DNA of 22,329 bases from a virus, in the IMG/VR virus record IMGVR_UViG_3300037237_000077, positions 1 to 22,329 of that record; one strand, given 5' to 3'. The translations under genes were made by a program, and so were the position numbers. This document shows positions 2,685-19,000 of this stretch, one piece after another. Position 1 is the first letter of the stretch. The number at the start of each line of letters is the position of its first letter. The notes under the pieces were generated by a model that did no database searches, was not told where the DNA came from, and worked only from the letters and a program-made list of their open reading frames with translations.

Positions 2685-5600
2685 TTAATTAGATGTGCAA
2701 AGGATATCGTAAGTTAAACCAGAAGTCGCCACATGGGTAATTGTGATCTGATTCGTTGTTTTGGCGGACACGTAACTCGTGGAGTAATTTGTCGCTGCCA
2801 AAGCATTCGTTGGGCTGAACTGGCAGTGCCCGCTCGAAGTCATCCCAGTCACCGTGACAGTATTGCTGGTGGCTGCAGTTGTTGTTAATGATGCGACGAT
2901 CGGAATATTTGCAGTTCCGACAGGTAGAGAAGGAAGAATCTGAAGATTCTGCTCTGACCCTGCGCTAAAGGTAGGCGCTGATCCATACCCAGTTCCGCCA
3001 AAGTCAATTACGATTCCGCCAGTAGCCGCAGGGATTTCGTTCGGATAAGTTCCCGTCATGACAAAGTGACATTGTGCAGGAGTCGTCGGGGATCCGCCAG
3101 AAGCCGAGCATGGTGGTGCATTCGCATAGCCCAATGAACTTGATGCAGTGCCTTGGCTGTAGCTTGTTGTGCTCGTGACGACGCCGGAGGTTAGCACGCC
3201 TGTCGCACTCGGTCCCGTTGCGACTATCGTTGTCTGCCAAATACCAGCAGCAGGTGCATTCGGGACGACCGTACTGAATCCGCTTGATACGTTCTCGGGT
3301 TGCTGCCAGCCAAATCCGTTCGTAATCGGCTGCTGCGCGAGGCCTTGACTACCACCGATTAAACCACCGCCAGGCCCCGAAGATGTTAGACTATTCGCTT
3401 GGAAGCCATTGCTTCCGCCATAATTTCCAGTGTTACTGACATCTGTGAAGTTGCTGGCTGTAATATTTCCACCACTAGTTTCTGAGGTCAGCGCTCCAGT
3501 TGTAGGCGTGGACAAATGCAGACTGGCTACAGTCGCGACTCCCGCAGTCGTCACAGTCGTATCGCCGGAAATTGTTTGAGGAATGTATGCAGTAGCCCCA
3601 GAGTTCATCACAGGGAATTGTGCCGAGGTTCCAAGAACAGGACCGCTCCCAGCGTTCGCAAGTACGAACGCATCAGTCGCGAGCAAGGTAGAGTTGTCGC
3701 CGCCTGTTTGCGTTGTTCCGGTCACGCCATTCGGAAGGGCTGGAGTGCCTGAGAGGTTTGCAGCCGTTCCCGTAGTATTTTGGTTTAAAGTAGCAACTCG
3801 TGCAGCAGCTAATGTGCCGCTCGTGATATTCGTCGCAACAGTAGTATCAGTGGTCGCACTAGCCGCCAGCCCGCTCACGTCAGCAGCAGCAGGTTGGGAC
3901 TGAAGTGGTACTCCAGAGTTGCTGATAGAGTAAATCCAGGTATGGGTCAGCGAAGGAATTGACTCGATGCCTCCGAGCGTCGTGGTGCTGGGAACTGGTA
4001 GTCGCGCGGCAGGGAGAGTTCCGCTCGAAATATTCGTCGCTACTGTGGCATCTACAGAGCAACTAGAAACGGAGTTGCTCAAATCTCCGCAAGTAGGCTG
4101 CGCTTGGTGCGGCAGGCCGGACGTATCGATATAAGTAATCCAATTATGAGCTGCGCTCGTAATGGAGTTCACGCCGCCGATTGCGCCCGCGCTCGCAGCA
4201 TTCAAATTGTGGATGACATTATTCGATGATTGAACTGCTGTGATGCCTGTACCGCTGATGATGTTCGGGGTAGTGATGACAGAGCCACCATTCACCGTCA
4301 ATGTACTACCGCCTGCATTTGCTAGGACGAACGCGTCTGTGGCGAGCTTCGTGGTGTTGTCGCCCGTGGTCTGAGTCGTGGCCGTCGTACCGCTCGGCAG
4401 CGCCGGCGTACCTGAAAGATTAGAAGCCGTGCCAGTCGTACTTTGATTGAGCGTTGGGAAGTCCGCTGCAACAGCGATGCTGGGCACTCCCGAGGTGGTC
4501 GTGTTCTTTAAAATGCCTGTCGCTAAGCTACTGAGAATCGTTCCATTCAACCCTTTGATTATCAATACACCGCCAGAGCTAAACGTTCCATCGCCACTCA
4601 TGGCAACACTCTGGATGGTAGTACTTGAGGCCCATAGAGCTATCTGGCCGCTGGTAATTGTGCCTGAGTAGGAAACATTGCCCCCGCCTGCGGGCGTGCC
4701 GCAGTTGGCTCCCCCTGAAACAGTCACGCCCGTTGCGAACTGCCCCCCAGGACACTGACTTGGAGTTGCTGCAAGAGCCGTTGCCGTACCAGCTAGACCT
4801 GTCGTACTTTGGTTCAATGTTGGGATGTCTGATGCAAGGACTGCTCGCCACAACCCGACACCACTCGCGCCATTCGGCGCAGCGTAGAAAAACTTCGCCG
4901 TCTGGGTTCCAGACAGGCCGACAGCAGTACCGGTCGTACTTTGATTCAGGGTCGGGATTCTGGCTGCTGCCAAGGTTCCGGTTGTGATGTTCCCGGCATT
5001 GGTCGTGTCGATGGTCGCAGAATTTGCCAAACCGTTACTGCCTGCAACTAAAGTTCCAAGACTTGCTCGTGGGATAGGGAAAGTAATTCCAGAGTCTCCG
5101 AGGGTTCGGCCATTTACGCCTACAAAAACAGGAATACCGTTATTCGTGCTTACGCTAGGCCCACTGACATTCCCCGCATTTGTACCGTATCCTTGAGCAT
5201 TCACCCATGCAGTGTTCGCAATCTTGCTCGAACTATCGACAGTGGGAGGTGTTGGAGACGTTGGTGTACCTGTCAGGTTCGGACTTGCCAAGGGTGCATA
5301 GGCTTGTCCTTTCACGAATGCGTCTGTGGCAATCGCAGTAGAGCTATCAGTCAATAACTGAGTAGGTGCATTCGGCGTGCCTGTAAGCGAAGGATTCAAA
5401 ATTGGCGCTCGTAGTGTCAATGCTGTGGAGAGGTCTGTTTGATTCGTTATATCCCCTGTAATTCCTCCCCATGCAGCACTTCCTCCCGTGCCCCCAGCTA
5501 CGCAGTCTGGACGGCCTCCAGCGCTATAACCCTGTACAACCTGTCCAGTGATGCAGTCTCCCGCGAAGATACCGCCGAGGGTATAGGGAGTTGGGAAGGG

Positions 5601-6056
5601 TAAGCGAGCGATCGCTACGCCAAGAATATTGGGAACATAGATATCAAAGTTGCAACTTCCGCTCGGGCACCAGTAGGATGCAGGCCCGGTACTCGCTGGT
5701 TGTACGCACTGATACCCAGACGATTGACTTCCGCCTAATACAATCTGATTTGCGGAGTTCTTGATTGTAGTACTGAAGCAGATGTTCGCGGGGTTCGTCA
5801 GAGTCGTATCGGCTACTTGGCAAGGTTGTCCGATTACGCCATTCGTCACCGTACAAATGGTGGGTCCAGTGATCTGTGAACCGCCTCCGCCAGCCTGATA
5901 GCTGATCGAGTTCCCATTGCTGTCCGTAGCTTGAAAAATGATTGTACCAGATGGTAGGAGTCCACTAGAGCCATTGTAGATGCTCGTGCTCGTGACGGGC
6001 ATAAAAGCTTGCCCGAATGCAATGTTGGAGAGTAATAGTAAAAGAAGTTTTCGCAT
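2685..6056 (-). CDS. Long repeat-rich tail fibre with signal-peptide-like N-terminus
   Basis: The product is 1123 aa from the ATG at 6056, which forms TAATG with the previous stop; an ATG at 6080 adds eight residues before MRKLLLLLLSNIAFGQAF but lies inside the previous gene. The hydrophobic start looks like a Sec signal peptide (cleavage near AFG-Q). Residues about 25-165 are a Cys-containing beta domain (ISYQAGGGGSQITG...SYWCPSGSCNFDIYV). Then come fibre repeats: two LTGTPxxPT...DSS..IA(T/N).A(F/W)V units, four TLNQxTTG units, and two long blocks ending LATDAFVLANAG. A GGI/GGV...HTWI/HNWI...QP unit also occurs twice. The last 200 residues are strand-rich. It is probably a homotrimeric fibre. 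The stop abuts the start of the last gene (TAAATG). Confidence 0.7.
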   Translation of the reverse strand: MRKLLLLLLSNIAFGQAFMPVTSTSIYNGSSGLLPSGTIIFQATDSNGNSISYQAGGGGSQITGPTICTVTNGVIGQPCQVADTTLTNPANICFSTTIKNSANQIVLGGSQSSGYQCVQPASTGPASYWCPSGSCNFDIYVPNILGVAIARLPFPTPYTLGGIFAGDCITGQVVQGYSAGGRPDCVAGGTGGSAAWGGITGDITNQTDLSTALTLRAPILNPSLTGTPNAPTQLLTDSSTAIATDAFVKGQAYAPLASPNLTGTPTSPTPPTVDSSSKIANTAWVNAQGYGTNAGNVSGPSVSTNNGIPVFVGVNGRTLGDSGITFPIPRASLGTLVAGSNGLANSATIDTTNAGNITTGTLAAARIPTLNQSTTGTAVGLSGTQTAKFFYAAPNGASGVGLWRAVLASDIPTLNQSTTGLAGTATALAATPSQCPGGQFATGVTVSGGANCGTPAGGGNVSYSGTITSGQIALWASSTTIQSVAMSGDGTFSSGGVLIIKGLNGTILSSLATGILKNTTTSGVPSIAVAADFPTLNQSTTGTASNLSGTPALPSGTTATTQTTGDNTTKLATDAFVLANAGGSTLTVNGGSVITTPNIISGTGITAVQSSNNVIHNLNAASAGAIGGVNSITSAAHNWITYIDTSGLPHQAQPTCGDLSNSVSSCSVDATVATNISSGTLPAARLPVPSTTTLGGIESIPSLTHTWIYSISNSGVPLQSQPAAADVSGLAASATTDTTVATNITSGTLAAARVATLNQNTTGTAANLSGTPALPNGVTGTTQTGGDNSTLLATDAFVLANAGSGPVLGTSAQFPVMNSGATAYIPQTISGDTTVTTAGVATVASLHLSTPTTGALTSETSGGNITASNFTDVSNTGNYGGSNGFQANSLTSSGPGGGLIGGSQGLAQQPITNGFGWQQPENVSSGFSTVVPNAPAAGIWQTTIVATGPSATGVLTSGVVTSTTSYSQGTASSSLGYANAPPCSASGGSPTTPAQCHFVMTGTYPNEIPAATGGIVIDFGGTGYGSAPTFSAGSEQNLQILPSLPVGTANIPIVASLTTTAATSNTVTVTGMTSSGHCQFSPTNALAATNYSTSYVSAKTTNQITITHVATSGLTYDILCTSN
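3650..4458 (-). repeat. Paired long repeat blocks within the long fibre gene
   Basis: Two copies of about 145 bases, near 4311-4458 and 3650-3797, encode the same block: TLNQ(S/N)TTGTA(S/A)NLSG, TPALP(S/N)G, TTQT(T/G)GDN(T/S)T, LATDAFVLANAG. Two further TLNQSTTG units without the block lie near 4801-4824 and 4932-4957. The protein match is close, but the DNA is diverged at third positions, so the duplication is old or under protein-level selection. Confidence 0.75.
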
Positions 6057-6370
6057 TATTTCAACCCCACTGCAATCCACTGGTAAGTGACACCAGAAGT
6101 GTTCAACGTAAAACCAGTCGTTGTGATGCCGGCGATGTTGACAGAACCCCCGACTCCTGTAGCCACGACGTAAGGAGCACTGCTGAATGCTTCGGGGAAG
6201 GTTACGCTAGTCCCACCCCCACTTCCGTACTGAATCAGTATTCCGCCTGCAACTCCTATGGTGTAATTTTGATTTTTAACATAGGCAGTAGTTGCTAATT
6301 TCAGTGAGCTGTCTGCTGATACTGGAGTCGGGGCAGTTGGTGTCCCGGTAAAAGTTGGGCTGTTTAGCAG
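5195..6370 (-). repeat. TGTP-type fibre repeat shared by two adjacent genes
   Basis: The motif SPxxTGTPxxPTxxxxDSSxxxAxxAxV occurs in the small fibre (about 6268-6370) and twice near the start of the long fibre (about 5300-5400 and 5195-5290). Adjacent genes sharing such units could exchange segments. The motif itself is common in phage fibres. Confidence 0.65.
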
Positions 6371-6655: not shown

Positions 6656-7510
6656 TTACGACGCGTGGCCGAGGTCTGCCCCAGCAATGTACGGACTATT
6701 AAGATCTGCTCCGAAGATTGGCAGTGTAGAGAATGTGTGAGTGTACTCGACAGTTTCAGGACGCGGAACAATCATTCCGTTCAAGATCATGTCTTGAATT
6801 AATGCTGAGAACGAGCCGGATAGGATAATCGTCGCTGTCATGTTCTGGTTGTCGATGACGTAGATTACGCCACCGGGAAACAGCTGCTGCCAACTCGTCC
6901 ACAGTGATCCAATCTGTCCATTCCACTGGTTCTGGATAATTTTTGCCTTGATCAAGATGCGGTAGTTGAAGTCATTCAGTACGGCGCTGACGCTTGCAGT
7001 AATAGGTTCACCAAAAGAGTGTGGTTTCGTAAACACAGCCACAGGATCACCAGATAAAAATTCGGTAATTACGACACTCTCTAGGTCACCCCCAGTACCT
7101 ACTTCTATACTCTGTTCCACCGACATACCTGCAATGGAAGCCGTTTGAAATACAGTAGGAGAGTTGATTGTAGTAATTGGAGTGCTCAGAGTCGTATTTA
7201 CTTGCGTCGGATTGAATGGCAGTATTCTACCAACTCCGACAATCTGTCCAAGAATATCGAGCTGCACCCCGACTGCCGCGTTGACATCGAAATAGTTGTA
7301 CATGACGCTCGCCAGAGCGCCAGCATCGATGAATGGCTGGATAAGAACTGTGAGCCACGCCTGCAAGTTGGGGGCATTCGTGCCTTTGTACTCGCTTGTG
7401 AGCAGTTGTAGGTAGTAACTACTCGGTGGCATAACGCCTGCGCCAGCCAAGCCTCCAAAAGGCCCGCTGCCAAATGCGCCGCTACCGAATGATCCAGGCG
7501 AAGTGCTCAT
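6656..7510 (-). CDS. DUF2612 baseplate/fibre-associated protein (gpI-like role)
   Basis: The product is 284 aa, ATG in an ATGA overlap with the tailspike stop. The segments YYLQLLTSEYKGTNAPNLQA, then DAGALASVMYNYFDVNAAVG and VQLDILGQIVGVGR are the DUF2612 signature, and LNDFNYRILIKAKIIQNQWN, GQIGSLWTSWQQLFPGG is its second conserved block. By position these proteins take the place of P2 gpI and help attach fibres to the baseplate. The N-terminus is Gly/Ser-rich (GSFGSGAFGSGPFGGLAGAG). The C-terminus GADLNSPYIAGADLGHAS is a short repeat. The TAA lies just before the GGGAG of the next gene. Confidence 0.8.
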   Translation of the reverse strand: MSTSPGSFGSGAFGSGPFGGLAGAGVMPPSSYYLQLLTSEYKGTNAPNLQAWLTVLIQPFIDAGALASVMYNYFDVNAAVGVQLDILGQIVGVGRILPFNPTQVNTTLSTPITTINSPTVFQTASIAGMSVEQSIEVGTGGDLESVVITEFLSGDPVAVFTKPHSFGEPITASVSAVLNDFNYRILIKAKIIQNQWNGQIGSLWTSWQQLFPGGVIYVIDNQNMTATIILSGSFSALIQDMILNGMIVPRPETVEYTHTFSTLPIFGADLNSPYIAGADLGHAS

Positions 7511-9318
7511 AAGCCGCAGTGCATGACTACTGTGTAAGTTTCGCTCGCAGCAGGGGTGAACGCCGTTCCGCCGCTCAAGGTAGCTGTGAAAGTAGTTTGG
7601 GTAGTAGACTGTGCTGTTTGTTTAAAGATGAGGTTGCCACCAGTTCCTGTCACCCCTGCTACTTGCAGGTTGCACACAGGTGCGCTCGGAAATGCTGTGG
7701 GGAAAACTATCTGTACAGTTGGAGCCGCTGCGAACGAAGCAGAACCAGAGGTAATAGCAAACTCGTTAAACTGGGTGTACTGAGTAGTCGGTCCCGCGAG
7801 AGCCGTGGACGCGCCGGTGCCCCATCCGGTCGGCAATGTGATATTTCCGATTGTCTGTGTAGCACCTTGGTTCGCGACTGAGAGGCCAGAGGTAGCGGTA
7901 CCTGACACATTAAAATTACTAACAACGTCGAACCCACTGATCGTACCGCCGCTATATGTCGCCTCAAAGCCAGCATTCCACGTGCCTGAGCGGCACGGTA
8001 TATTGTAATATCCACTTCCTTTAAATGCGACATAGGGACCACAGTAAAACTGGCCTCCAGTCCCGGAGTTAGCAATGAGAGCACTGATAGTCTGATTGGT
8101 GCCGACCTCCAATAGCATGCCAGGGTCTATGTCTATTTTAGTGGTGCTGCTATCTACCTGAAGAGCGCCGCCCGTTGTCAACGAATGCGTGACATCAGTC
8201 CAGGAGAACTCGCCTCCGGCTCCGATCTGAATCTCGGTTTGCAGACCGATGGTGTTGGCTAAAATCTGAGGGCCCGAGCATGTTTCCATGTGAACAGCGT
8301 TAAGAATTAAGTGCCCACCATTGAAAGAAATCTGCCCTGTGCCGAGGCTGTTTGGGCATCCCGAGGCATTGTTCGAGCCCCAGTAATCCATGCTGAGATG
8401 GTCAAAACTCAGCGTAGATCCGTACCCATTCGGGCAAGATACAGCCAGCCCCGTGTTGCCTCCGCCAGACGCAAAATGCGTCCCGATCCAGGCCATGTTC
8501 TCTTCGCCGGTAATCCCACTGGCGCACGTCACGCCGTTCTCAGCGTCCGAATACCCGCCCATGATCGTGCCAACCAACCATGTTTCCTGGAAAACATTAT
8601 TTCCCAACTTATACTGCGTGCCGAAATGTTGGACATCGACGTTGTAGAAAACGTCGTAAAAGTCAGAAGCGCTAGATGAAATGACTGTATTCGTCGGATC
8701 ACCACCAAGCCAAATTCCGTATGGTGTATTACTCAAACCGCTCCCGATCAAAGTTAGATTGCTGATTCCCCTGCGTGCATATGTACCTGGGTAGCTCGGG
8801 TTGAGGGATGCTGTGTTCGCAGCAATGATGGCTGGCGAGGGAAGGCTGGCTACCGTGATCACGCTGTTTTGGCCTTCGATTGTGACCCATTGAGGCTTAA
8901 TCACTGTCGTAGTTAAAGCGTAAGTGCCTGTGACTATGGCGCACACGCCGGGCTGGGTTGGCGAATATGTGGCAATGCAAGCGTTCAACTGGCTGCCGAT
9001 ATCGCCAGCGCCCCACGCTGTTGTTCCGGTTCCCACGAAACGAACGGAATTAACATTAGAACTGGTTACAGAAGCAGCATTAAGTGTTGAGCCTGTTCCC
9101 GTAACTGAGAGAATTCCGGTCGTCAGTAATCCATTAATTGTTAAATTTGGTAATGATGTAGTGCCGCTCAATAAGTTATCAAGAGAGTAAAAATTGTAGT
9201 CGATCAGCGGCCCCCACGTGTTGATGTTTCCACCGGGCAGTGGAACATTGAAATTCAAGTTCGGCGTAATCTGTGCGCACGCCATACCGCAGAGAAGAAT
9301 TAATATCAGTTTTCTCAT
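7507..9318 (-). CDS. Tailspike/fibre with signal-peptide-like N-terminus and beta-helix
   Basis: The product is 603 aa, starting in an ATGA overlap with the J gene, so the start is secure. The first 17 residues (MRKLILILLCGMACAQI) look like a Sec signal peptide with an ACA-Q cleavage site. Residues about 20-52 (NLNFNVPLPGGNINTWGPLI, then DYNFYSLDNLLSG) are a phage-fibre N-terminal motif. From about residue 100, GAGDIGSQLNACIATYSPTQ and the following strands resemble a pectate-lyase-type parallel beta-helix running to about residue 400. The C-terminus has FPTAFPSAPVCNLQVAGVTG, seen in receptor-binding ends of fibres. It could act as a depolymerase or receptor binder; I do not see a catalytic pair I can name. 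The signal peptide is unusual for a virion protein. Confidence 0.7.
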   Translation of the reverse strand: MRKLILILLCGMACAQITPNLNFNVPLPGGNINTWGPLIDYNFYSLDNLLSGTTSLPNLTINGLLTTGILSVTGTGSTLNAASVTSSNVNSVRFVGTGTTAWGAGDIGSQLNACIATYSPTQPGVCAIVTGTYALTTTVIKPQWVTIEGQNSVITVASLPSPAIIAANTASLNPSYPGTYARRGISNLTLIGSGLSNTPYGIWLGGDPTNTVISSSASDFYDVFYNVDVQHFGTQYKLGNNVFQETWLVGTIMGGYSDAENGVTCASGITGEENMAWIGTHFASGGGNTGLAVSCPNGYGSTLSFDHLSMDYWGSNNASGCPNSLGTGQISFNGGHLILNAVHMETCSGPQILANTIGLQTEIQIGAGGEFSWTDVTHSLTTGGALQVDSSTTKIDIDPGMLLEVGTNQTISALIANSGTGGQFYCGPYVAFKGSGYYNIPCRSGTWNAGFEATYSGGTISGFDVVSNFNVSGTATSGLSVANQGATQTIGNITLPTGWGTGASTALAGPTTQYTQFNEFAITSGSASFAAAPTVQIVFPTAFPSAPVCNLQVAGVTGTGGNLIFKQTAQSTTQTTFTATLSGGTAFTPAASETYTVVMHCGL

Positions 9319-10547
9319 ATTGAGTTCACCACAACGTTCGCCGTCACCCCTTCAGATACTTGATAAAAGTCCAGCGCCAAATCCGCCGTCGTCGTGAACG
9401 AGCCGCCACTGAGCGACAGGTAAAGAGTTCCTATGCGAACGATCGGTAAAGATGGATTCGTGTTCACCGACATTGCTATGTACATCAGCGAAGACCAATT
9501 CACGCTCTCTCCAATCTGAAGGCTGTTGAGATATGCGACCAGAGCACTTTGAATTGCAGTGATCGTGGCGGCAGTTCCCCCGGCCAAAAGATGAGCGTTG
9601 ACGATCACATGAATCGCGGTTTCGGTTGGACGTGCGAAGTTAATCGGAATCGTGATTCCAGAGTTCGGATCCGTCACGCTTACCGTGACCAACGTGCCGC
9701 CTGTGCTGCCGTTCGTATTTGGTCCAATGCCTCGGTTATTGTAAATAGCTGTTGCCACAGCTAAGTTTGTTCCACCTTCCACCACGCAGCTCAAGGAGTG
9801 AGCAGGATTGCCCCAGTCATCAGTTCCGCCTGTGAAGTTTTCAATGCTAGTAGTTCCTTGAGACGAGAGTGTGGTTCCATTGTTGATGCGAGTCACGCCA
9901 GGCACTGCTAAGATACTGGCGATAGTTCCAGCCAACAGCGTCTCAGAAGGAAGCTCAGTGCTGATCGCCTGTCTAGTGCGAAGTTGCGAATCAGTTTCAA
10001 TAGGTTCGCCTACATTTGGTAGATTGCTACCATTCGATACGCTCGTCCACCCTCCAACAGCCGTGCTAATGACTGTGATTTGATTCGCACCAACTGTGAT
10101 AGCCCCAGTCTGCTGTGCTGTGGCTGTCGTGTTTATCAGTCCACCGCCGCCGATGGTCACTGACGCAGGAAGATTCCAGAGATTACCATTTATATCTGCG
10201 ACTATGCCACCTACGATGATCGTTCCCACTACTCCGCCCAATGTCACAGTACAAGTAGAATTAGTCGCTGGAAGGCGTGTCATCCCATTTAGTGCAACAA
10301 TGGCATCGAGCGCGGATCTGATCGCAGTCGTAGGTGAAAACGCATTGTACGCCAACTGAAGGCAGTTCAGGTAGTCAGCTGCCGCAAGCGCCCAAATTGC
10401 CAAAAATTGCTCGTCCGCAGCACTGTTGTCTAGATTTACAGATTGTCCATAGGTCGATAGAAAATTAGATGTGTAGTACGCAAGGATGTCGTTGTAGCTG
10501 GGAATCGACAATCCAGCTGGACCGATACTTGGCGGTAAGTAGCTCAT
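9315..10547 (-). CDS. Baseplate J-like wedge protein
   Basis: The product is 410 aa from an ATG at 10547. Features of the baseplate J family are clear: an N-terminal helical segment (YNDILAYYTSNFLSTYGQSV, then NLDNSAADEQFLAIWALAAA), a beta domain beginning RLPATNSTCTVTLGGVVGTI, the EPIETDSQLRTRQAIST motif, VPGVTRINNGTTLSSQGTTS, and the SLSCVVEGGTNLAVATAIYN-RGIGPNTNGS segment typical of J proteins. Six or more copies form the ring around the hub to which fibres attach. The stop overlaps the next gene as ATGA. Everything from here to the left edge is adhesin-like apart from the DUF2612 gene. Confidence 0.85.
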   Translation of the reverse strand: MSYLPPSIGPAGLSIPSYNDILAYYTSNFLSTYGQSVNLDNSAADEQFLAIWALAAADYLNCLQLAYNAFSPTTAIRSALDAIVALNGMTRLPATNSTCTVTLGGVVGTIIVGGIVADINGNLWNLPASVTIGGGGLINTTATAQQTGAITVGANQITVISTAVGGWTSVSNGSNLPNVGEPIETDSQLRTRQAISTELPSETLLAGTIASILAVPGVTRINNGTTLSSQGTTSIENFTGGTDDWGNPAHSLSCVVEGGTNLAVATAIYNNRGIGPNTNGSTGGTLVTVSVTDPNSGITIPINFARPTETAIHVIVNAHLLAGGTAATITAIQSALVAYLNSLQIGESVNWSSLMYIAMSVNTNPSLPIVRIGTLYLSLSGGSFTTTADLALDFYQVSEGVTANVVVNSI

Positions 10548-10548
10548 T

Positions 10549-10944
10549 TTAAGTCAATGCCCCAGATGGCGGTTGAGGATAATTCGACAGCACCATCGTC
10601 CCAAATTGCGTGCTGATCTGTGCAGAGTATGTGAACTGCCGCGTGATCGAATTGAATCCAGTTTGCACATTGTTGACCGTGATGATAAATGGTGAGCCTA
10701 AAATACGCTGCGTAATCAGCACTGCGATTTGCTCTTGAGATGAGGTGCTAGCTGATTGTCCGAGGATACTCTGCCACAGTGGAAGCCCGTCAAGAGTATT
10801 AGCCCACCACTCACCCTGAAACATTTGTAGTCTGCAAAGGACGATCTGCGCCACGGCTGCTTGATCAGAGATATAGTTATCTTGGCCAGCGCCCCAGAGA
10901 GGATCATTGTTCGGACCAAGTTGGCGGACTGTGATGACGCTCAT
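10549..10944 (-). CDS. Baseplate wedge protein, gpW/gp25-like
   Basis: The product is 131 aa, starting in an ATGA overlap with the spike stop. The pattern NYISDQAAVAQIVLCRLQMF, then QGEWWANTLDGLPLWQSILG, then SSQEQIAVLITQRILGSPFI is the signature of small gp25/DUF2634-type wedge proteins, which lock sheath, tube and J-like wedges together and start contraction. The C-terminus FTYSAQISTQFGTMVLSNYP is a beta hairpin as expected. It is followed after one base by the gpJ-like gene, the usual partner. Confidence 0.8.
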   Translation of the reverse strand: MSVITVRQLGPNNDPLWGAGQDNYISDQAAVAQIVLCRLQMFQGEWWANTLDGLPLWQSILGQSASTSSQEQIAVLITQRILGSPFIITVNNVQTGFNSITRQFTYSAQISTQFGTMVLSNYPQPPSGALT

Positions 10945-11621
10945 ACCGGTGGCCCAGAAATACCAGTTCCGACTGTGATCCCATTGTGCTCGTGAGTCGA
11001 AAAAACTTTCCCTCCAAGGGTCGTAGCACCTGAGACAGTGAGCGTGCCATTGATGCTGACAGGCCCATTTAGATCAATGATGGTGGACGCAATAATCCGC
11101 ACTGTACCGTTCGCATCAAGCTCGACAACGCTAGTGCCATCATCAGTTCGTATCTGTAAAGTACTAGGCGAGTAGTTGGGAATTATTCGACTGGCTTGAG
11201 AGCATAAACCAAAGATCGCAATGCCGTCTGATAACGAATGTCGTCGCTGAATTCCTTGCGTGTTGCTCGTCCCGCCTGCTGACCACCAGCCATCGATGCA
11301 GTAGTCTGAGAACACGACAAGGCATTCATCTCCGACTGCAATGGGTAGAGTGATCGAAAACCCACCTCCACGGTACACGGCGATCGGCACATCTCCAAGA
11401 GGTTTGATTGCCGTAGGAGTTGGAACACCCTTCAGCATCGGATTTTCCATGATCGCCACTTGTACGGTTACCGTCTGATTCGACGCCACTTTTGAGATAT
11501 CGGTCACGATACAGGGAATCGAGCATCGCAAGTCCGCTGCAAATTGCCAAAACTGCTCGTAAATCGCAGCCTGCGGTACACCGAGCAGAGTAAGTAAGTT
11601 GACGAATCCTGGAGAACTCAT
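10941..11621 (-). CDS. Baseplate spike (gp138/gpV-like, OB fold plus iron-tip motif)
   Basis: The product is 226 aa from an ATG at 11621 that makes an ATGA overlap with the hub stop. An upstream ATG at 11639 would add six residues but overlaps the hub gene more, so I do not prefer it. Residues about 32-140 form the Gp138 N-terminal OB-like domain: RCSIPCIVTDISKVASNQTV, VPIAVYRGGGFSITLPIAVG, DECLVVFSDYCIDGWW and RRHSLSDGIAIFGL. Residues about 155-205 are a short repeated beta-helical stalk (VSINGTLTVSGATTLGGKV). The end FSTHEHNGITVGTGISGPPV carries a His-x-His (210, 212), the metal-binding tip of membrane-piercing spikes such as P2 gpV. Three copies would sit below the hub. Confidence 0.85.
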   Translation of the reverse strand: MSSPGFVNLLTLLGVPQAAIYEQFWQFAADLRCSIPCIVTDISKVASNQTVTVQVAIMENPMLKGVPTPTAIKPLGDVPIAVYRGGGFSITLPIAVGDECLVVFSDYCIDGWWSAGGTSNTQGIQRRHSLSDGIAIFGLCSQASRIIPNYSPSTLQIRTDDGTSVVELDANGTVRIIASTIIDLNGPVSINGTLTVSGATTLGGKVFSTHEHNGITVGTGISGPPV

Positions 11622-12691
11622 TGGCTTGTTCCGGTCCACTGCTGGGCCATCACTAAGCCCTCAGAAGTGAGTGCGAGTTTATCCTTCGCCAACAATGCAC
11701 CCGTCACGTCCACGTACCATTCTTGTCCACGTGTGTCGCCAGTGAACTTTGCCCCGATAATTGCATAGATGCCATCCTGCGAAAGGATTCCAGGCAAGAC
11801 TCCGAGTTGGCGAATGTACTGCCTGACCTGAGAATTTTGAATGGAGATACACTTCATCGGCTTCGTAACTTCGATGTTCGGATTTAGCAGGAGCCTGCAG
11901 TTCACTCCAAACTGCGTCTGCTGTGGAGTTCCGACGATCACAGCATTCGCCTCAGGGTTGTTTCCCGGCATACAGACAATTGGATTCTTGGCATTTACCG
12001 TGATGTCGGAGTCATCCACCTTGCCTACATTTAATAAGCCTTTACCTTGAAGCCAGAAGCTCATGCCGTTGTCCCGCGAAATATCTCGTAAGTGCTGTTT
12101 CGGCGTTCCAAAGAAGGTTTGCGATCGAGCCGCAGTCTTAGTAAGAGTGGTTGAAATCGTTCCCACTGAAATTGGATGGAATGAGTTTTTGGCGATAGTC
12201 TGAACTATCTGCTCTTGCGTGTAAAGAAGAGCTGCAAAACTTTCATTGATCAGATTCTGGTCGAGATTCACTAGCGACACGACGCAATTCAGCGTAATCT
12301 TGAAGTCAACCTGATTTTCTCGCTCGAACAATGGCTGTAAGACAAAACCGTTGAAGATCTCTCCATAGGCTCCATTTTGATATCCAGCCGAAAGGATGAC
12401 TTGCATATTTTGCGTAATCGGCGGAGCTGCTGTGCCTACTGTAGGTGCCGGAGGAGTGTTGCCAGAGCGGCCCTGTGTGACAATGAACTCCGTTACCTGC
12501 TCATTCATATTATAAATACAGATATTGGCGAACCACCAACCTTGCCACGCGTGTGTCTCGATATCAAATGTCACCCGCAATGACTCAGCATTGTTATTTG
12601 GATCAGGCAGCGTAATTAGTGTCTGTCCGCCGCTATCAGCTGGGCCGATGATTTGGAGTTGCCACTTTCGCAGAAATAGATTATCGCTCAC
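11618..12691 (-). CDS. Baseplate hub protein (gp27 / Pam3 gp19-like)
   Basis: The product is 357 aa from a GTG at 12691 that overlaps the previous TGA as GTGA. A TTG at 12706 would add five residues but lies deeper in the upstream gene, so I prefer the GTG. The sequence SDNLFLRKWQLQIIGPADSG, then LRVTFDIETHAWQGWWFANI, CIYNMNEQ, and IFNGFVLQPLFERENQVDFK is the layered beta-barrel text of phage hub proteins. FFGTPKQHLRDISRDNGMSF is the helix that precedes the second barrel. Three copies would form the base of the tube and carry the spike. Length and position agree with Pam3-like hubs. The stop overlaps the spike start as ATGA. Confidence 0.8.
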   Translation of the reverse strand: MSDNLFLRKWQLQIIGPADSGGQTLITLPDPNNNAESLRVTFDIETHAWQGWWFANICIYNMNEQVTEFIVTQGRSGNTPPAPTVGTAAPPITQNMQVILSAGYQNGAYGEIFNGFVLQPLFERENQVDFKITLNCVVSLVNLDQNLINESFAALLYTQEQIVQTIAKNSFHPISVGTISTTLTKTAARSQTFFGTPKQHLRDISRDNGMSFWLQGKGLLNVGKVDDSDITVNAKNPIVCMPGNNPEANAVIVGTPQQTQFGVNCRLLLNPNIEVTKPMKCISIQNSQVRQYIRQLGVLPGILSQDGIYAIIGAKFTGDTRGQEWYVDVTGALLAKDKLALTSEGLVMAQQWTGTSQ

Positions 12692-14424
12692 GCGTTGTCG
12701 CCCCAAGCAAGAATAAAATCACTCCCAAGATTCGTGTTGTCAGGGTAGTTCCCAGCAGTGCCAGAAATATTCAGTACGAAAATGCTGCCAATCTGCAAGT
12801 ACCCGTACTGCTGCAAAATATTCAGACCTGTAATCATCGGAAGAGAATCGAGCAACAGCACTCCCTGAGAGTTATAGATCGTCATCACCCAGTAACCGGC
12901 GATTGCATTGTAACGTAAAGCGACGAGAAATGTTTGCACTCCACCATTGACAGACACAGATACCTTCCATGTCTGATTCGGAAAAGTATCTAGTGGAACT
13001 ACTTGCAAGCTGTCGATAACTTCCAAGCTGATCGGCAGCATCGAAGGGCCAGCTAAGATTGGCGTTGAAACAGGCGCTGTCCCTCCACCACCGCCACCGC
13101 CTCCAGGCGCAACCGGAGGTATGTAGGATGCAGAACTATACTGACTTCGAATACACGGTTTTCCAACAGCTATCACGTAAATTGAGTACTCAGAGGCCAG
13201 CCATCCAGTGATGGATGCTAGATTAAAACTCTTACTTCCTCCAACGGCCTGCGACCATAAAATAGCTGCATTGACTCCGTCGGGCGACGCTAAAATTAGG
13301 TATTCTGAGATAGTCGTCTCATCGCCTGTGCCACCGCTTACGCTCCAATTCAAAGTACTACCAGTCACCGATGCCACCACAGCGATATTATTTTGGATGG
13401 CACTTTCTATTTCTGAACCTTCCTCCCAATCATCCCAGGTAGGAACTTGAATGCCGACCGCGTTAGAGCATAAATTCGAGTTGATCAGCGCGGCCTGCGT
13501 CAACCAGCACTTACCATTGTCGCGTGGCATGTACTTACCCTTCGACCATGCCGTCGTCCCCGTCAGCATCCCGTTGAATCCAGCAGAGATGCACTGCATA
13601 GCACCCTTTGCGTTTCCATTTACATCGCCGTAGTAAGCGAGGGCCGCAGTGGAGTTGTAGGGATCACTCATATTCACGCCGCTGGAATATGGTTGCACCC
13701 AGTCATAGCATCCATCAACCCATGAGTTAACTAAGCAGCCTGGACCTTGAAACATCCAGTACATCGAAATTCCCATCACAGACCGTACTGTCGTATAGTT
13801 CACACCCCCGACACCAGGTCCCCAGAACATCAGAACGGGATTTCCGCCTTGCTTCGTGTAGTTCGCATCCGAGAGATACTGAGATTGGACGTAATTTGCC
13901 TGTGTTTGGAGCGTCGCAGTAGATGTATAAGCTCCAGTATCGATCATAATTGTGTAAGTCAGACCGAATCCTGGATTACTAGAAAGAAAGGTTTGAATAA
14001 GAAGTGCTACAGAATTTGTGTAATCACTCAACCCATACCAGTCGATGATAACGCCGTCGAAGCCGCGTGCCTTCACATCATTCAACATGGCTGATACCCA
14101 GCCTGTAGAGTCGCAATTCACCCCAATATCGATGTGACCACCACCACCGCCACTGTGGAACCACGGAGTCAAGTGGGCATACCACTTTCCAGAATAACTG
14201 GGTATTAAGGTCTTAATACTGACTGGCGAAACATGGCACGGTGTGATGGCGTTTAGGCTAAGATCGTACTGTGTTGGATCCACTGAAATTGTGCTACCAG
14301 TATTATTCACCCATGTCGATGTGCCGAAGTTAGCTGCAAAGTCGGTTTCGTTGTAAGCAGAATTTGCCGAGGTATTATGCCCTAGCTCGTTCGCTATCGT
14401 TGTCGTAAGTACTAGGAGGGACAT
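12688..14424 (-). CDS. Glycoside hydrolase-Fn3-baseplate plug fusion
   Basis: The product is 578 aa in one uninterrupted frame. Residues about 80-345 resemble a GH71/GH99-type TIM barrel: WYAHLTPWFH (81-90), then DVKARGFDGVIIDWYGLSD with candidate acid D128, then PTWDDWEEGSEIE (328-340) near the end of the barrel, like the TWNDYxEGTxIE motif of those families. Residues about 350-435 look like an Fn3 domain (WSVSGGTGDETTISEYLILA). An eight-Gly linker (441-448) follows. Residues 462-578 match the Pam3 gp18-type plug domain (DUF6983): TWKVSVSVNGGVQTFLVALR, YWVMTIYNSQGVLLLDSLP and LGSDFILAWGD. The position between the Dit-like and hub genes is where the plug gene lies in Pam3. Substrate is unknown; GH71 and GH99 act on alpha-glucans and mannans. 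The start has no clear ribosome binding site and is probably coupled through TAATG. Confidence 0.75.
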   Translation of the reverse strand: MSLLVLTTTIANELGHNTSANSAYNETDFAANFGTSTWVNNTGSTISVDPTQYDLSLNAITPCHVSPVSIKTLIPSYSGKWYAHLTPWFHSGGGGGHIDIGVNCDSTGWVSAMLNDVKARGFDGVIIDWYGLSDYTNSVALLIQTFLSSNPGFGLTYTIMIDTGAYTSTATLQTQANYVQSQYLSDANYTKQGGNPVLMFWGPGVGGVNYTTVRSVMGISMYWMFQGPGCLVNSWVDGCYDWVQPYSSGVNMSDPYNSTAALAYYGDVNGNAKGAMQCISAGFNGMLTGTTAWSKGKYMPRDNGKCWLTQAALINSNLCSNAVGIQVPTWDDWEEGSEIESAIQNNIAVVASVTGSTLNWSVSGGTGDETTISEYLILASPDGVNAAILWSQAVGGSKSFNLASITGWLASEYSIYVIAVGKPCIRSQYSSASYIPPVAPGGGGGGGGTAPVSTPILAGPSMLPISLEVIDSLQVVPLDTFPNQTWKVSVSVNGGVQTFLVALRYNAIAGYWVMTIYNSQGVLLLDSLPMITGLNILQQYGYLQIGSIFVLNISGTAGNYPDNTNLGSDFILAWGDNA

Positions 14425-15116
14425 TATGGAGTAGTAGTTGGGAAACTTCCCATGCTGTTCAGCAAGTTCTGCGTCGTCGGATCGAGCGTCGTTGTGGACT
14501 TCGTACCCTCGTTCGTCGCTCCAGTCTGATCAGGACGCTGACTCTGGGTCGTCACGCTCACCGTGGCGGAAATGATCTGGCGCATGTAGATTGAACAGCG
14601 CAGGGCGAACGGTGTGCGCGGGTCATCGACGGCACGAATATCTGTGATGACCATGTTCTGGTAGTTGTCAAGATGAGTTGCGAGCGTAATCGTCACTCGT
14701 GCCGCCTGGATCTGCTTAAATGTTTGGTATGCAAACACAGACTTCGACGATGCTCCAGAGTACTGACCCGCCACATAACTCTCCATCGCATCAGACATGC
14801 CGATTTCGAGCATCACCATCGCAGGCCGCAAGTAGGCGTGGTCAACAATCGCAGGTCCGACTTGTACAGGGTGCTCTGTGCAAACTAATTCCTGCGTATG
14901 CTCTACACGAAAAACTGCATCTAAGAAGTACGTCGTAGGCGAAGATGGCGTGTCGGATGAAGCATTATTCGTTTGCGCAGTAGTCGACGGCAACGTACAC
15001 GTCAAACTGGTTTTCTGAGGTTTACCATACTGCGGAGGACGGAATGGTCCACCAGAACTCGGAATAGGGGGATTATTAGCACTCAACTGCGAAATAACGA
15101 AGCCCGCGAGACTCAC
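14424..15116 (-). CDS. Dit-like baseplate/tail protein (N-terminal Dit-like domain)
   Basis: The product is 230 aa from the GTG at 15116 (a longer reading from GTG 15125 adds three residues). After a Pro/Ser-rich leader, the segment EHTQELVCTEHPVQVGPAIV, then DHAYLRPAMVMLEIGMSDAM, has the E...EHPVxxGxxIxDHAxxxPxxxxLEI pattern I associate with Dit-like phage tail protein N-terminal domains. The following FKQIQAARVTITLATHLDNY and MVITDIRAVDDPRTPFALRC complete the beta fold, and MRQIISATV is the usual last strand. The tail after it is Thr/Gln-rich and probably disordered. Such proteins attach the tube end to the hub. The gene ends in TAATG with the plug fusion. Confidence 0.7.
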   Translation of the reverse strand: MSLAGFVISQLSANNPPIPSSGGPFRPPQYGKPQKTSLTCTLPSTTAQTNNASSDTPSSPTTYFLDAVFRVEHTQELVCTEHPVQVGPAIVDHAYLRPAMVMLEIGMSDAMESYVAGQYSGASSKSVFAYQTFKQIQAARVTITLATHLDNYQNMVITDIRAVDDPRTPFALRCSIYMRQIISATVSVTTQSQRPDQTGATNEGTKSTTTLDPTTQNLLNSMGSFPTTTP

Positions 15117-16525
15117 TTTTGCCACCCTTGCGCGTGCGCGAAGTTTACGCCAGCCTGCAACTTGGCAGCTTGCGAGATTGCATCTAGTACTGACTTCTTG
15201 ATCTGATCAGGCGAAGTCTTTGTCTCCGCGATGTGGATGCCGCCGACATTCACGGTCATCGTGATTGGGCGTGTATCGCTACTCCCCGATCCAAGAAACT
15301 GTTTCTGCTTAAGGTACCGCTGGTAGACATCTGCTCCATAGATGTCGGCTTTTAGCCCAGTTCCATTGTAGTAGGCAAAAGCCTTTTGCTGATCGCCGCC
15401 ATACTTCCGTAGTCCTTCACGGTAGCGGTACAAGCCAGCTTGGATGTTCTCATTTAAGTCTGAAAGATTATCAAAGCCCTCAGCCATGCCAGTCTCAGGG
15501 CGAACTTGAAACATGCCAATTTCACCGACTTTACCCATCTTCGCCTTCGGGTTCGTACCACTTTCTTTGTCTGCAATGGCAAGTGCCCCAGCAGGGTCAA
15601 CGTGCATCTGACGTGCCCACTGCACAATCAAGTCCTTGACAGAATTTCCGGTCGTAGCATTAGCTCCAGAGCGCCAATCGGCTTTGCCCGCCCACCAGGC
15701 TTTTTTCTGGTCATCAGTCCACGAACCACCGCCTTTAGGACCAACCAGAATACTGTTCTCTGCAATATCCCCAGCTGTATCGCCAGCTAATTCTCTGACC
15801 TTGTGCTTGCTCTCCAACCACGCGACGAACATTTTCACGTCTGCAAAGAAGGCCATCGACTCTTTAGCTGCCCACTTGATGGCAGGCACCAGCACATCAG
15901 AAAACTCCTTCGAGATTCTTACAAACCCCTGTGGGGACTCGAACCAGTCTACAAAACCTTTAAGTCTAACTTCCAGAGACTCAGAGTTACCGAATAACTT
16001 GTTCATCACATCTTCAGTCAGGCGCATCGCAAAGATTCTAAGTGCAGGCTCCATGCGCGTGAACTGGAAGCCGATGTCCCTGATTTTCCGAAAGACTCGC
16101 TCTCCACCATCCTCACCCAGATAGCGAAACATCTTGTCTTGATCGATGATCAGCTGATGATAGCGCTCGGCCAATTCTGGCGGACCCCAGATGATTTCTT
16201 CGAGCGAGTAACCGAGGGCGTCTGTGGCGATCTTCAGCTTACGAGCTGCGTCCGTGCCCATGTACATACGGCGAGCATACAGTTGAAACGACAAGTCCTG
16301 CTTTGCGACGGAGGACACGAGACCTACAGTAGCACCAGCCACGGCAGCTGCAGCCGCAACGAACGCTGTACCGACTTCTGCAAATGCAATTGCTGCTCCA
16401 CCTGCAAATTTTGCAACTTCCACAGCATCTCGCTTCAATACATCCGAAAATTTCCGAGATGAGGTTTCGTCTACTGCGTACCCAAGCTTGACGAGATAAC
16501 TGCGAATTGTAGTGAAGTCAGCCAC
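15113..16525 (-). CDS. Short tape measure protein with a lytic transglycosylase (SLT) domain
   Basis: The product is 470 aa from a GTG at 16525. The N-terminus (IRSYLVKLGYAVDETSSRKF) is typical of tape measure proteins, and residues about 38-72 form an Ala/Val-rich hydrophobic segment that could enter the inner membrane. The middle is helical (VLVPAIKWAAKESMAFFADV). Residues about 295-405 are an SLT domain: ALAIADKESG carries the likely catalytic Glu at 321, followed by GEIGMFQVRPETG, NIQAGLYRYREGLRKYGGD and AFAYYNGTG, the expected GxFQ and AYNxG-type motifs. The protein would set tail length, cross the envelope and cut peptidoglycan. At the usual rough scale for tape measures, 470 residues implies a short tail. 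The start overlaps the end of the chaperone extension; the stop overlaps the next GTG. Confidence 0.85.
   Translation of the reverse strand: MADFTTIRSYLVKLGYAVDETSSRKFSDVLKRDAVEVAKFAGGAAIAFAEVGTAFVAAAAAVAGATVGLVSSVAKQDLSFQLYARRMYMGTDAARKLKIATDALGYSLEEIIWGPPELAERYHQLIIDQDKMFRYLGEDGGERVFRKIRDIGFQFTRMEPALRIFAMRLTEDVMNKLFGNSESLEVRLKGFVDWFESPQGFVRISKEFSDVLVPAIKWAAKESMAFFADVKMFVAWLESKHKVRELAGDTAGDIAENSILVGPKGGGSWTDDQKKAWWAGKADWRSGANATTGNSVKDLIVQWARQMHVDPAGALAIADKESGTNPKAKMGKVGEIGMFQVRPETGMAEGFDNLSDLNENIQAGLYRYREGLRKYGGDQQKAFAYYNGTGLKADIYGADVYQRYLKQKQFLGSGSSDTRPITMTVNVGGIHIAETKTSPDQIKKSVLDAISQAAKLQAGVNFAHAQGWQK
15125..15129 (-). promoter_or_regulatory. Ribosome binding site that decides the start of the Dit-like gene
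   Basis: AAGGG on the minus strand lies 8 bases before a GTG at 15116. An earlier in-frame GTG at 15125 would directly abut this site, too close to use. The 15116 GTG also forms a GTGA overlap with the tape measure stop, so it is the better start. Confidence 0.6.
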
Positions 16526-17602: not shown

Positions 17603-19000
17603 CTACTGGATGTAAATGCCCATCACGACCGAGTGAACTGCGCCAGCTTCGTTGATCGCAAAGTAAATTGGCATAGCTTGCCGTGCAGCCTTTGCAGCGG
17701 GTGTTTGAGTGTTGTAGGGCGGAGACAGCGCCAAAAAACCAGACGGTAAGGGATTACCAGTCGCCAATCCTGTTCCGTTCGAGCCAACAAGAAGATTCGG
17801 TCCTTCCCACGTTCCTGGTGCTAAGTATCCGCTTACGACAGCTGCAGCACCAGCCTGATTTACTGCATGCAGCAAGAGCGTCTGGCCTGGATCTGTTTGC
17901 GGTACGCTGGGCAGCGATGTCAGTACATTCATAATGTTATAGGCGCAGGCTGCTCCGAGAATGTCTCGATTGAGCACCTGATCGATGAATGTTCCCGTAA
18001 CAGGCGTGGTGCCCTGCTCCAGAATTACGTAGGCATTGACGTAACCCACATAAACGTTGATGTTATTGCCTTCAATAGCTGCAATTTGCGTCGTCGTCAG
18101 AGGTTCTGGAACGATCCCAGTCAGCACCTTGAACTTCATCGTGAAGTAGCTGTTGGCGAGCCCAGTATTCAAACCCATCATCACGCCCATCGCAGCGGCG
18201 CAAGAGTACTGATTTGCCGCGAAGGTTGAAGTCTGCCCAAAATCTCCAAAGACTCTGGTATAGCTTGCAGCCTTCATCGTTGCCCCAATATTACCCGCCT
18301 GATTGTTTAGCACGGCAACATCTGAGGTCGTGTAAAAGTATGCTCCGACCGGCTGCATAGATTGTACGTAAGCAGCGATCGCCAAATGGTCTGCATCGAT
18401 CGCAGTCGTGCACATCACAGCCCACCAAAGTGAGCTGGCTGCACGGCACGCTGTAATAGCGACCAGCGGAGTCTCGCCTACGAGCGTGATATCCACCTGT
18501 GCTCCGCTTCCAGTCCCGCCCGTAGTAGCAAGACCATTAGCGACCGAATATCCTGTACCATCTGTGACCAGACTGACTCCGGTTACTGTACCGGAACCGC
18601 CAATGGTCGTGACTCGAACGGTGCCAGCGCTCGCCCCGCCCTGCACGACCGTAAGAATATCTCCGACGAGATATCCGGTACCTTCTGACGCGGCATGGAC
18701 TTGGACCGTCGCAATCGAGGTTGCATCCTGCCTTCCAATCTGCAACTGCGTCGGAATAGGTGTCTGGCTGAAGTAGAGTTGAGCCGCAATATACTCGGGA
18801 CTGGAAGGACTGAAGCCGTCTGTCAGCATTCCCGCCGTTCCGGTATAAGTTCGAATGCGCGAGTTTGCACCGACCGAGGGAATGACCGCGCTATTCCCCA
18901 CAATCAGCCCAACATTATACCGCGGCGACACTGCGGACTGTGGCGTAACGTAGACGGAGATATTGACAATCGGATTCAAAGATAATGCAGGACTAGACAT
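17603..19000 (-). CDS. Contractile tail sheath protein (DUF3383-like)
   Basis: The product is 465 aa from an ATG with a strong GAGGAG site. The N-terminus (NPIVNISVYVTPQSAVSPRY, then NVGLIVGNSAVIP) and the C-terminal text (NQAGAAAVVSGYLAPGTWEG, then PIYFAINEAGAVHSVVMGIYIQ) are characteristic of the DUF3383 sheath family of KPP10- and Pam3-like myophages. The sheath polymerises around the tube and contracts at infection. The conserved core includes WWAVMCTTAIDADHLAIAAY and the DILGAACAYNIMNVLTSLP segment. Residues about 98-174 form an inserted beta domain with two EGTGY/DGTGY-type half repeats, probably displayed on the outside of the sheath. The gene is followed after 15 bases by the tube gene, the standard order. 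Confidence 0.85.
   Translation of the reverse strand: MSSPALSLNPIVNISVYVTPQSAVSPRYNVGLIVGNSAVIPSVGANSRIRTYTGTAGMLTDGFSPSSPEYIAAQLYFSQTPIPTQLQIGRQDATSIATVQVHAASEGTGYLVGDILTVVQGGASAGTVRVTTIGGSGTVTGVSLVTDGTGYSVANGLATTGGTGSGAQVDITLVGETPLVAITACRAASSLWWAVMCTTAIDADHLAIAAYVQSMQPVGAYFYTTSDVAVLNNQAGNIGATMKAASYTRVFGDFGQTSTFAANQYSCAAAMGVMMGLNTGLANSYFTMKFKVLTGIVPEPLTTTQIAAIEGNNINVYVGYVNAYVILEQGTTPVTGTFIDQVLNRDILGAACAYNIMNVLTSLPSVPQTDPGQTLLLHAVNQAGAAAVVSGYLAPGTWEGPNLLVGSNGTGLATGNPLPSGFLALSPPYNTQTPAAKAARQAMPIYFAINEAGAVHSVVMGIYIQ
18479..18709 (-). other. Inserted GTGY-type beta domain within the sheath
   Basis: This stretch encodes residues about 98-174 of the sheath. It has the pattern EGTGYLVGDILTVVQGGASA, then a TVRVTTIGGSGTVTGVSLV segment, then DGTGYSVANGLATTGGTGSG and AQVDITLVG. 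Such two-part Gly/Thr-rich units are seen in fibres and other phage surface proteins as small beta sandwiches. The flanking sequence (PTQLQIGRQDA before, AITACRAASSLWWAVM after) looks like continuous sheath core, which is why I read this as an insertion. The boundaries are approximate. Confidence 0.6.

Follow-up and report, generated by a model that had tools for sequence, protein, structure and literature searches.

Baseplate plugs of known structure are enzyme-free proteins of 106-139 residues, whereas the plug encoded in the 22,329-nucleotide stretch of viral DNA analysed here (the window) carries 440 more residues at its N-terminus. In its plug domain and its slot between Dit and hub, this protein resembles Pam3 gp18 (PF22479; PDB 7yfz), P1 gp26 and the six-fold adaptors, or 'BH1a'. 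An earlier note on this DNA had read the additional part as a GH71/GH99-like glycoside hydrolase, placed by the plug at the very centre of a contractile baseplate. Whether the two parts belong to one protein, what the N-terminal part is, and where on the virion it would be carried are the questions raised by this locus.

The plug fusion and its baseplate operon

The source record is a partial 22-kb IMG/VR viral contig from a metagenome. As had been claimed, the fusion occupies a single open frame encoding 578 residues; its strand, not given before, is minus (Table 1). The gene order also agreed with the earlier reading, with Dit upstream, the hub downstream and overlapping junctions at both ends. 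The operon runs in the order tape measure, Dit, plug (fusion), hub, spike, W and J, and the gene called as the tape measure has a weak phrog_12506 match across its start (E 0.0046). One base is shared at the Dit/fusion junction (TAATG) and four at the fusion/hub junction (GTGA), indicating that the fusion gene is part of a tightly coupled baseplate operon. The GTGA overlap further suggests that the true hub start is the GTG at 12691.

Table 1. Features of the plug fusion and of the surrounding tail genes, in window coordinates.
Feature	Position	Strand	Basis
Plug fusion gene, 578 aa, ATG start, TGA stop	12688..14424	-	ATG at 14424; sole match in its own record
(beta/alpha)8-type barrel, GH71/GH99-related, no signal peptide, residues 1-343	13396..14424	-	profiles, model
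Catalytic motif WDDWEEGSEIE with GH71-type dyad D332-x-x-E335, residues 330-340	13405..13437	-	A4 alignment
Beta-sandwich of the enzyme module, residues 344-435	13120..13395	-	plug-less homologues; model strands
Eight-Gly linker, residues 441-448	13081..13104	-	sequence
Pam3_gp18 (PF22479) baseplate plug domain, residues 475-576	12697..13002	-	profile match
Contractile tail sheath	17603..19000	-	phrog_205, E 2e-78
Probable short tape measure protein with SLT lytic transglycosylase domain	15113..16525	-	PF01464; gene position
Dit-like tail protein	14424..15125	-	PF21821; 1-nt overlap with fusion start
Baseplate hub, E217 gp41 / phrog_196 type	11618..12706	-	Pfam and PHROGs matches
Baseplate spike, PF18352 domain	10941..11639	-	profile match
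Baseplate wedge, gp25/W type	10549..10944	-	phrog_120
Baseplate wedge, J type	9315..10547	-	PF04865, phrog_6

The proposed assignment of the C-terminus to the plug family was borne out by a PF22479 match of 57.5 bits (cut-off 24.2; E 2.1e-15; profile positions 3-100 of 101) and by a match to phrog_349. The plug profile also matched the six chains of Pam3 gp18 in 7yfz and further baseplate chains present in six copies. The fused plug is the only PF22479 plug within the partial record. By plug, the nearest annotated phage is Agathobaculum AB434P3 (37%); this phage and those of Klebsiella, Yersinia and Burkholderia have a stand-alone plug of 100-121 aa in the same slot, 3' of a Dit-like gene and, wherever the next gene was resolved, before the hub. 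A circularly permuted plug in the window protein was considered and rejected, as the domain is complete and in normal order. In a separate plug clade (L250-L262; e.g. L254:2974-3408), a C-terminal extension of about 50 residues is conserved in length.

The exact fusion is known from a single metagenome contig, so that an assembly chimera or an unresolved frameshift, with enzyme and plug separate in the real phage, had to be weighed. This appears extremely unlikely, because the frame is unbroken, GC and GC3 are homogeneous (0.486 and 0.498 in the barrel, 0.462 and 0.530 in the plug, with neighbouring genes alike), and the same architecture occurs with other domains on other contigs. In addition, the overlaps on both sides are intact, which puts the enzyme exactly at the start of the plug gene. 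The fusion gene contains no sign of either a frameshift or a chimera.

Elsewhere in the window, three large minus-strand genes (3-2684, 2685-6080 and 7507-9318) have signal-peptide-like starts (MKYFLVILILSLAVFGQ, MRKLLLLLLSNIAFGQ and MRKLILILLCGMACAQ), which would not be expected of virion proteins that assemble in the cytoplasm. One of the three matches a PHROGs tail fibre family and two are without family match.

The N-terminal module as a predicted, divergent GH71/GH99-type hydrolase

As a lone sequence, residues 1-440 gave no significant family match, Pfam GH71 (PF03659) included, and scans for close relatives with one query at a time (whole protein, barrel, plug, hub) found none. Because single queries were fruitless, we turned to a degenerate active-site DNA pattern and then to profiles. 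The pattern led to phage relatives and from these to an alignment (A3), whose profile found 202 stretches in bacterial genomes. The 80 that were kept come mostly from Acidobacteriota, along with Verrucomicrobiota, Myxococcota and Burkholderiaceae. A family alignment of 66 rows (A4) includes 54 members that match GH71 in Pfam and 42 that match GH99, the window member itself matching neither. Against known structures, the A4 profile matched GH99 endo-alpha-mannosidases (E 1.4e-8) in an alignment that spans the catalytic motif.

AlphaFold run without an alignment gave a model that was not usable (pLDDT 36), and with A4 it gave one of pLDDT 88 and pTM 0.89. This predicted structure has the GH71 layout, a (beta/alpha)8 barrel followed by a C-terminal beta-sandwich. 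Foldseek placed Agn1 (GH71) first (1.4e-10), GH99 second (2.5e-10) and AnGH71C next. In a viral structure library, zero phage proteins matched the whole barrel at E <=0.001; the best full-length matches were to viruses of eukaryotes, and phage matches covered about 90 columns only. Thus, the GH71/GH99 relationship that had been proposed holds up in the family profile, in the Pfam matches of the homologues and in the fold comparison, and a hydrolase fold is modelled; a profile search with the N-terminal part by itself, as first suggested, recovers no family, whereas its family profile recovers GH99 structures and most of its homologues match GH71. Profiles and model together point to a sequence-divergent GH71/GH99-type hydrolase. 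It is probably an alpha-glucan or alpha-mannan hydrolase, and its substrate may be alpha-1,3-glucan-like.

The catalytic motif is conserved: all 66 homologues have W330, D332, E334, E335, G336 and E340. The catalytic dyad is D-x-x-E in GH71 and E-x-x-E in GH99 (PMC12394665), and the Asp in first position gives the window enzyme a dyad of the GH71 kind; the GH99 form was not seen, since all 66 rows have this Asp. The window protein thus shares with the inverting GH71 alpha-1,3-glucanases (Agn1, 8yfh; AnGH71C, 9fnf) the barrel and beta-sandwich, the D-x-x-E dyad and the top fold match, but it differs from them in its low identity (about 11%, below Pfam recognition), in lacking a signal peptide and a conserved Lys, and in being part of a phage baseplate protein. 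With the GH99 endo-alpha-mannosidases (4acy, 4ad1) it shares the fold and the location of the catalytic motif, but not the Glu at the first dyad position.

The missing Lys corresponds to position 281, where 60 of the 66 homologues have Lys but the window protein and L124, its closest relative, have Ala. We infer that this column is equivalent to Lys233 of AnGH71C. The conserved GH71 Lys above the dyad is thus without a counterpart in the window protein, and the specificity or rate of the enzyme may differ. The loss of this near-invariant residue could also mean that the barrel is an adhesin or a stabilising domain, which binds a surface glycan as a plug-fixed receptor-binding part and is not an enzyme. 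In keeping with such a role, the domains on other plug fusions (propeller, NHL or BACON) are ones that usually serve in binding. However, the dyad and every other invariant residue are kept, and the Ala also occurs in L124, an intact secreted protein of one domain, so that we regard an adhesin as rather unlikely.

The region between barrel and linker had been described as an Fn3-like domain joining enzyme to plug. Weak fn3 matches were found in 2 of 66 homologues. The region is probably no spacer: it travels with the barrel in plug-less homologues of the A4 family, such as L124. In GH71 enzymes a C-terminal beta-sandwich packs against the barrel (PMC12394665), and on these two grounds we assign the region to the enzyme module. 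The linker of eight Gly residues is present as reported, and is encoded by four different Gly codons, so it is not a nucleotide homopolymer.

Signal-peptide-like starts were found in 77 of 87 homologues by a simple hydrophobicity rule. The closest relative, L124, is a Verrucomicrobiia protein of 462 aa with about 41% identity over the whole module; its signal peptide is visible by eye and scores just below the rule. In a quick tree with long branches, the window barrel pairs with L124 (SH-aLRT 99), adjoining a phage sequence, L115 (97), and other phage copies are scattered in several positions. The simplest reading is that phages have repeatedly captured a secreted bacterial enzyme, the export signal being lost when it became part of a virion. 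These results suggest that phages and Acidobacteriota harbour a new branch of the GH71/GH99 clan that has diverged in sequence.

Members of the family also occur in other viral settings. The phage contig L028/L115 has the same enzyme family in a virion-type gene, but in a different tail protein and without a plug: the module is inserted in a 1324-aa podovirus-type tail protein (L028:8445-12419), with terminase, portal and capsid genes adjoining. On a 49.6-kb viral contig, two GH71-like modules lie in tandem in one frame (L117:4857-7265), and the gene beside it encodes a papain-like peptidase.

Plug fusions on other contigs and in bacterial genomes

The earlier note knew the plug as a small stand-alone protein. 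We checked each plug frame in about 155 plug-bearing viral contigs. Most long 'extensions' of the frame in GC-rich contigs were rejected as shadows of the overlapping Dit gene. Genuine N-terminal fusions were found on three other contigs, none with a GH71-like module. The first encodes two tandem proteins, one with NHL/propeller and plug, the other with a BACON domain, further sequence and plug (L234/L294); the second has a propeller-like region, recognised by eye without a Pfam match, and a plug that is circularly permuted by the order of its HMM segments (L264); the third has a domain of about 120 aa and a plug (L205). Thus, the plug is not exclusively a stand-alone protein, but the domains it carries on these contigs differ from the one in the window.

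Two of these loci have further peculiarities. On L294 (the same contig as L234, IMGVR_UViG_3300010371_000807; 291-5200), both tandem plugs end before the last strand, and the strand that they lack, NNLNLGKDFLLLWGD, is encoded at the start of the next ORF, which begins in an ATGA overlap, possibly as a split plug or a frameshift. In L264:3-1319, the C-terminal part of the plug comes first, after the propeller-like region and a Pro-rich linker, and the W wedge gene comes next.

In 1,182 bacterial genomes (396 Acidobacteriota, 388 Verrucomicrobiota and 398 Pseudomonadota), every PF22479 match above the cut-off was a short plug and none was fused; one sub-cut-off partial match fell in a 308-aa frame. 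The phage records inspected likewise contained no fused plug, no locus carrying the GH71-like family had a significant plug match, and a second copy of the exact fusion was not found. In the literature searched, the coverage of which was incomplete, neither a plug-enzyme fusion nor a phage GH71 was described. Far from being common among plug homologues, the fusion is therefore rare, although as an architecture not unique, and the plug seems occasionally to carry cargo at its N-terminus. A core part of the contractile baseplate thus tolerates large N-terminal cargo, which phages have used to carry a predicted polysaccharide hydrolase.

Proposed position on the baseplate and role

In papers on related machines, the plug, or BH1a, holds the trimeric hub to the external wedges as a six-fold 'glue' or 'binding agent', and it is reported to leave the baseplate upon contraction (PMC11915804, PMC12810830). 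Similarly, the adaptor gp33 of E217 is lost at contraction (PMC10329688). We apply these descriptions to PF22479 on the basis of the Pam3 comparison in the P1 paper and of the six gp18 chains. From the published location, the enzyme would sit in a ring round the hub and not in the axis. Thus, the baseplate slot proposed earlier holds, but the 'very centre' claims too much, as published structures place the plug between hub and wedges in six-fold arrangement and not in the central channel. Release upon contraction, also proposed, is plausible from reports on the plugs of related phages. The six copies, the hub-wedge position and the release are transferred by analogy from this literature.

We consider it probable that the fusion is a virion protein in which an enzyme captured onto the plug is displayed on the baseplate and shed at contraction. 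In the mechanism that we propose, a secreted enzyme from the GH71/GH99 clan that hydrolyses alpha-glycans, of a type common among Acidobacteriota and also present in a Verrucomicrobiota MAG, would have lost its signal peptide and been joined via the Gly linker to the plug N-terminus. In a soil-type phage whose contractile tail ends in a simple baseplate of the Pam3 type, the product would be built into the virion, where the plug domain would set up to six copies into the hub-wedge gap, if six 45-kDa domains fit round the hub, with the enzyme parts probably facing outward or downward. The enzymes might then cut back exopolysaccharide or capsule where the phage lands, before or while the plug detaches; when the tail contracts, the plugs would be shed and the enzymes would leave with them at the cell surface. 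Presence in the virion, copy number, timing and benefit to infection are all presumed in this scheme.

It is also conceivable that the virion enzyme has a late role after contraction, in the envelope (periplasm), like the hub lysozymes. Baseplate hydrolases elsewhere mostly target peptidoglycan (A-1(L) hub, PMC10966104), and the neighbouring hub in Gram-positive relatives bears an M23 domain. Such a role is nevertheless very unlikely here, because enzymes of the GH71/GH99 clan cut alpha-glucans and mannans and not peptidoglycan, the adjacent tape measure-type gene already encodes an SLT transglycosylase, and plugs remain outside the tube.

The proposed display on a plug that is shed also sets the protein apart from known virion hydrolases. 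In the hub enzymes (A-1(L) gp15; M23-hub fusions, for example in Agathobaculum phage AB434P3), a hydrolase is likewise part of a core baseplate protein, but it sits on the hub, at three copies per trimer, and those with a known target cut peptidoglycan. Tailspike and tail-fibre depolymerases are virion-borne polysaccharide enzymes, as we presume the window protein to be; however, the window protein has no trimeric beta-helix, and is mounted on a plug that other phages shed at contraction. The suggestion of a delivery route different from that of tailspikes is supported. Virion-associated polysaccharide hydrolases were already known, and it is the structural position on the plug that is new, being found nowhere in the literature searched. 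The fusion makes it a testable question whether plug enzymes are active before contraction or are freed by it. More tentatively, and we would not yet favour this, the plug might be a general cargo carrier, especially in soil phages, holding varied domains in six copies round the hub and shedding them at contraction. If so, it would form an effector ring that can detach, a device different from spikes, fibres and hub enzymes.

Other baseplate proteins of the group carry hydrolases as well. In Gram-positive-type relatives, the hub has an N-terminal M23 peptidase-like part (L003:1448-4466 and L004:1804-3741; PF01551 in L003); in L003, Dit is also extended at its C-terminus, by a part resembling a 3D domain.
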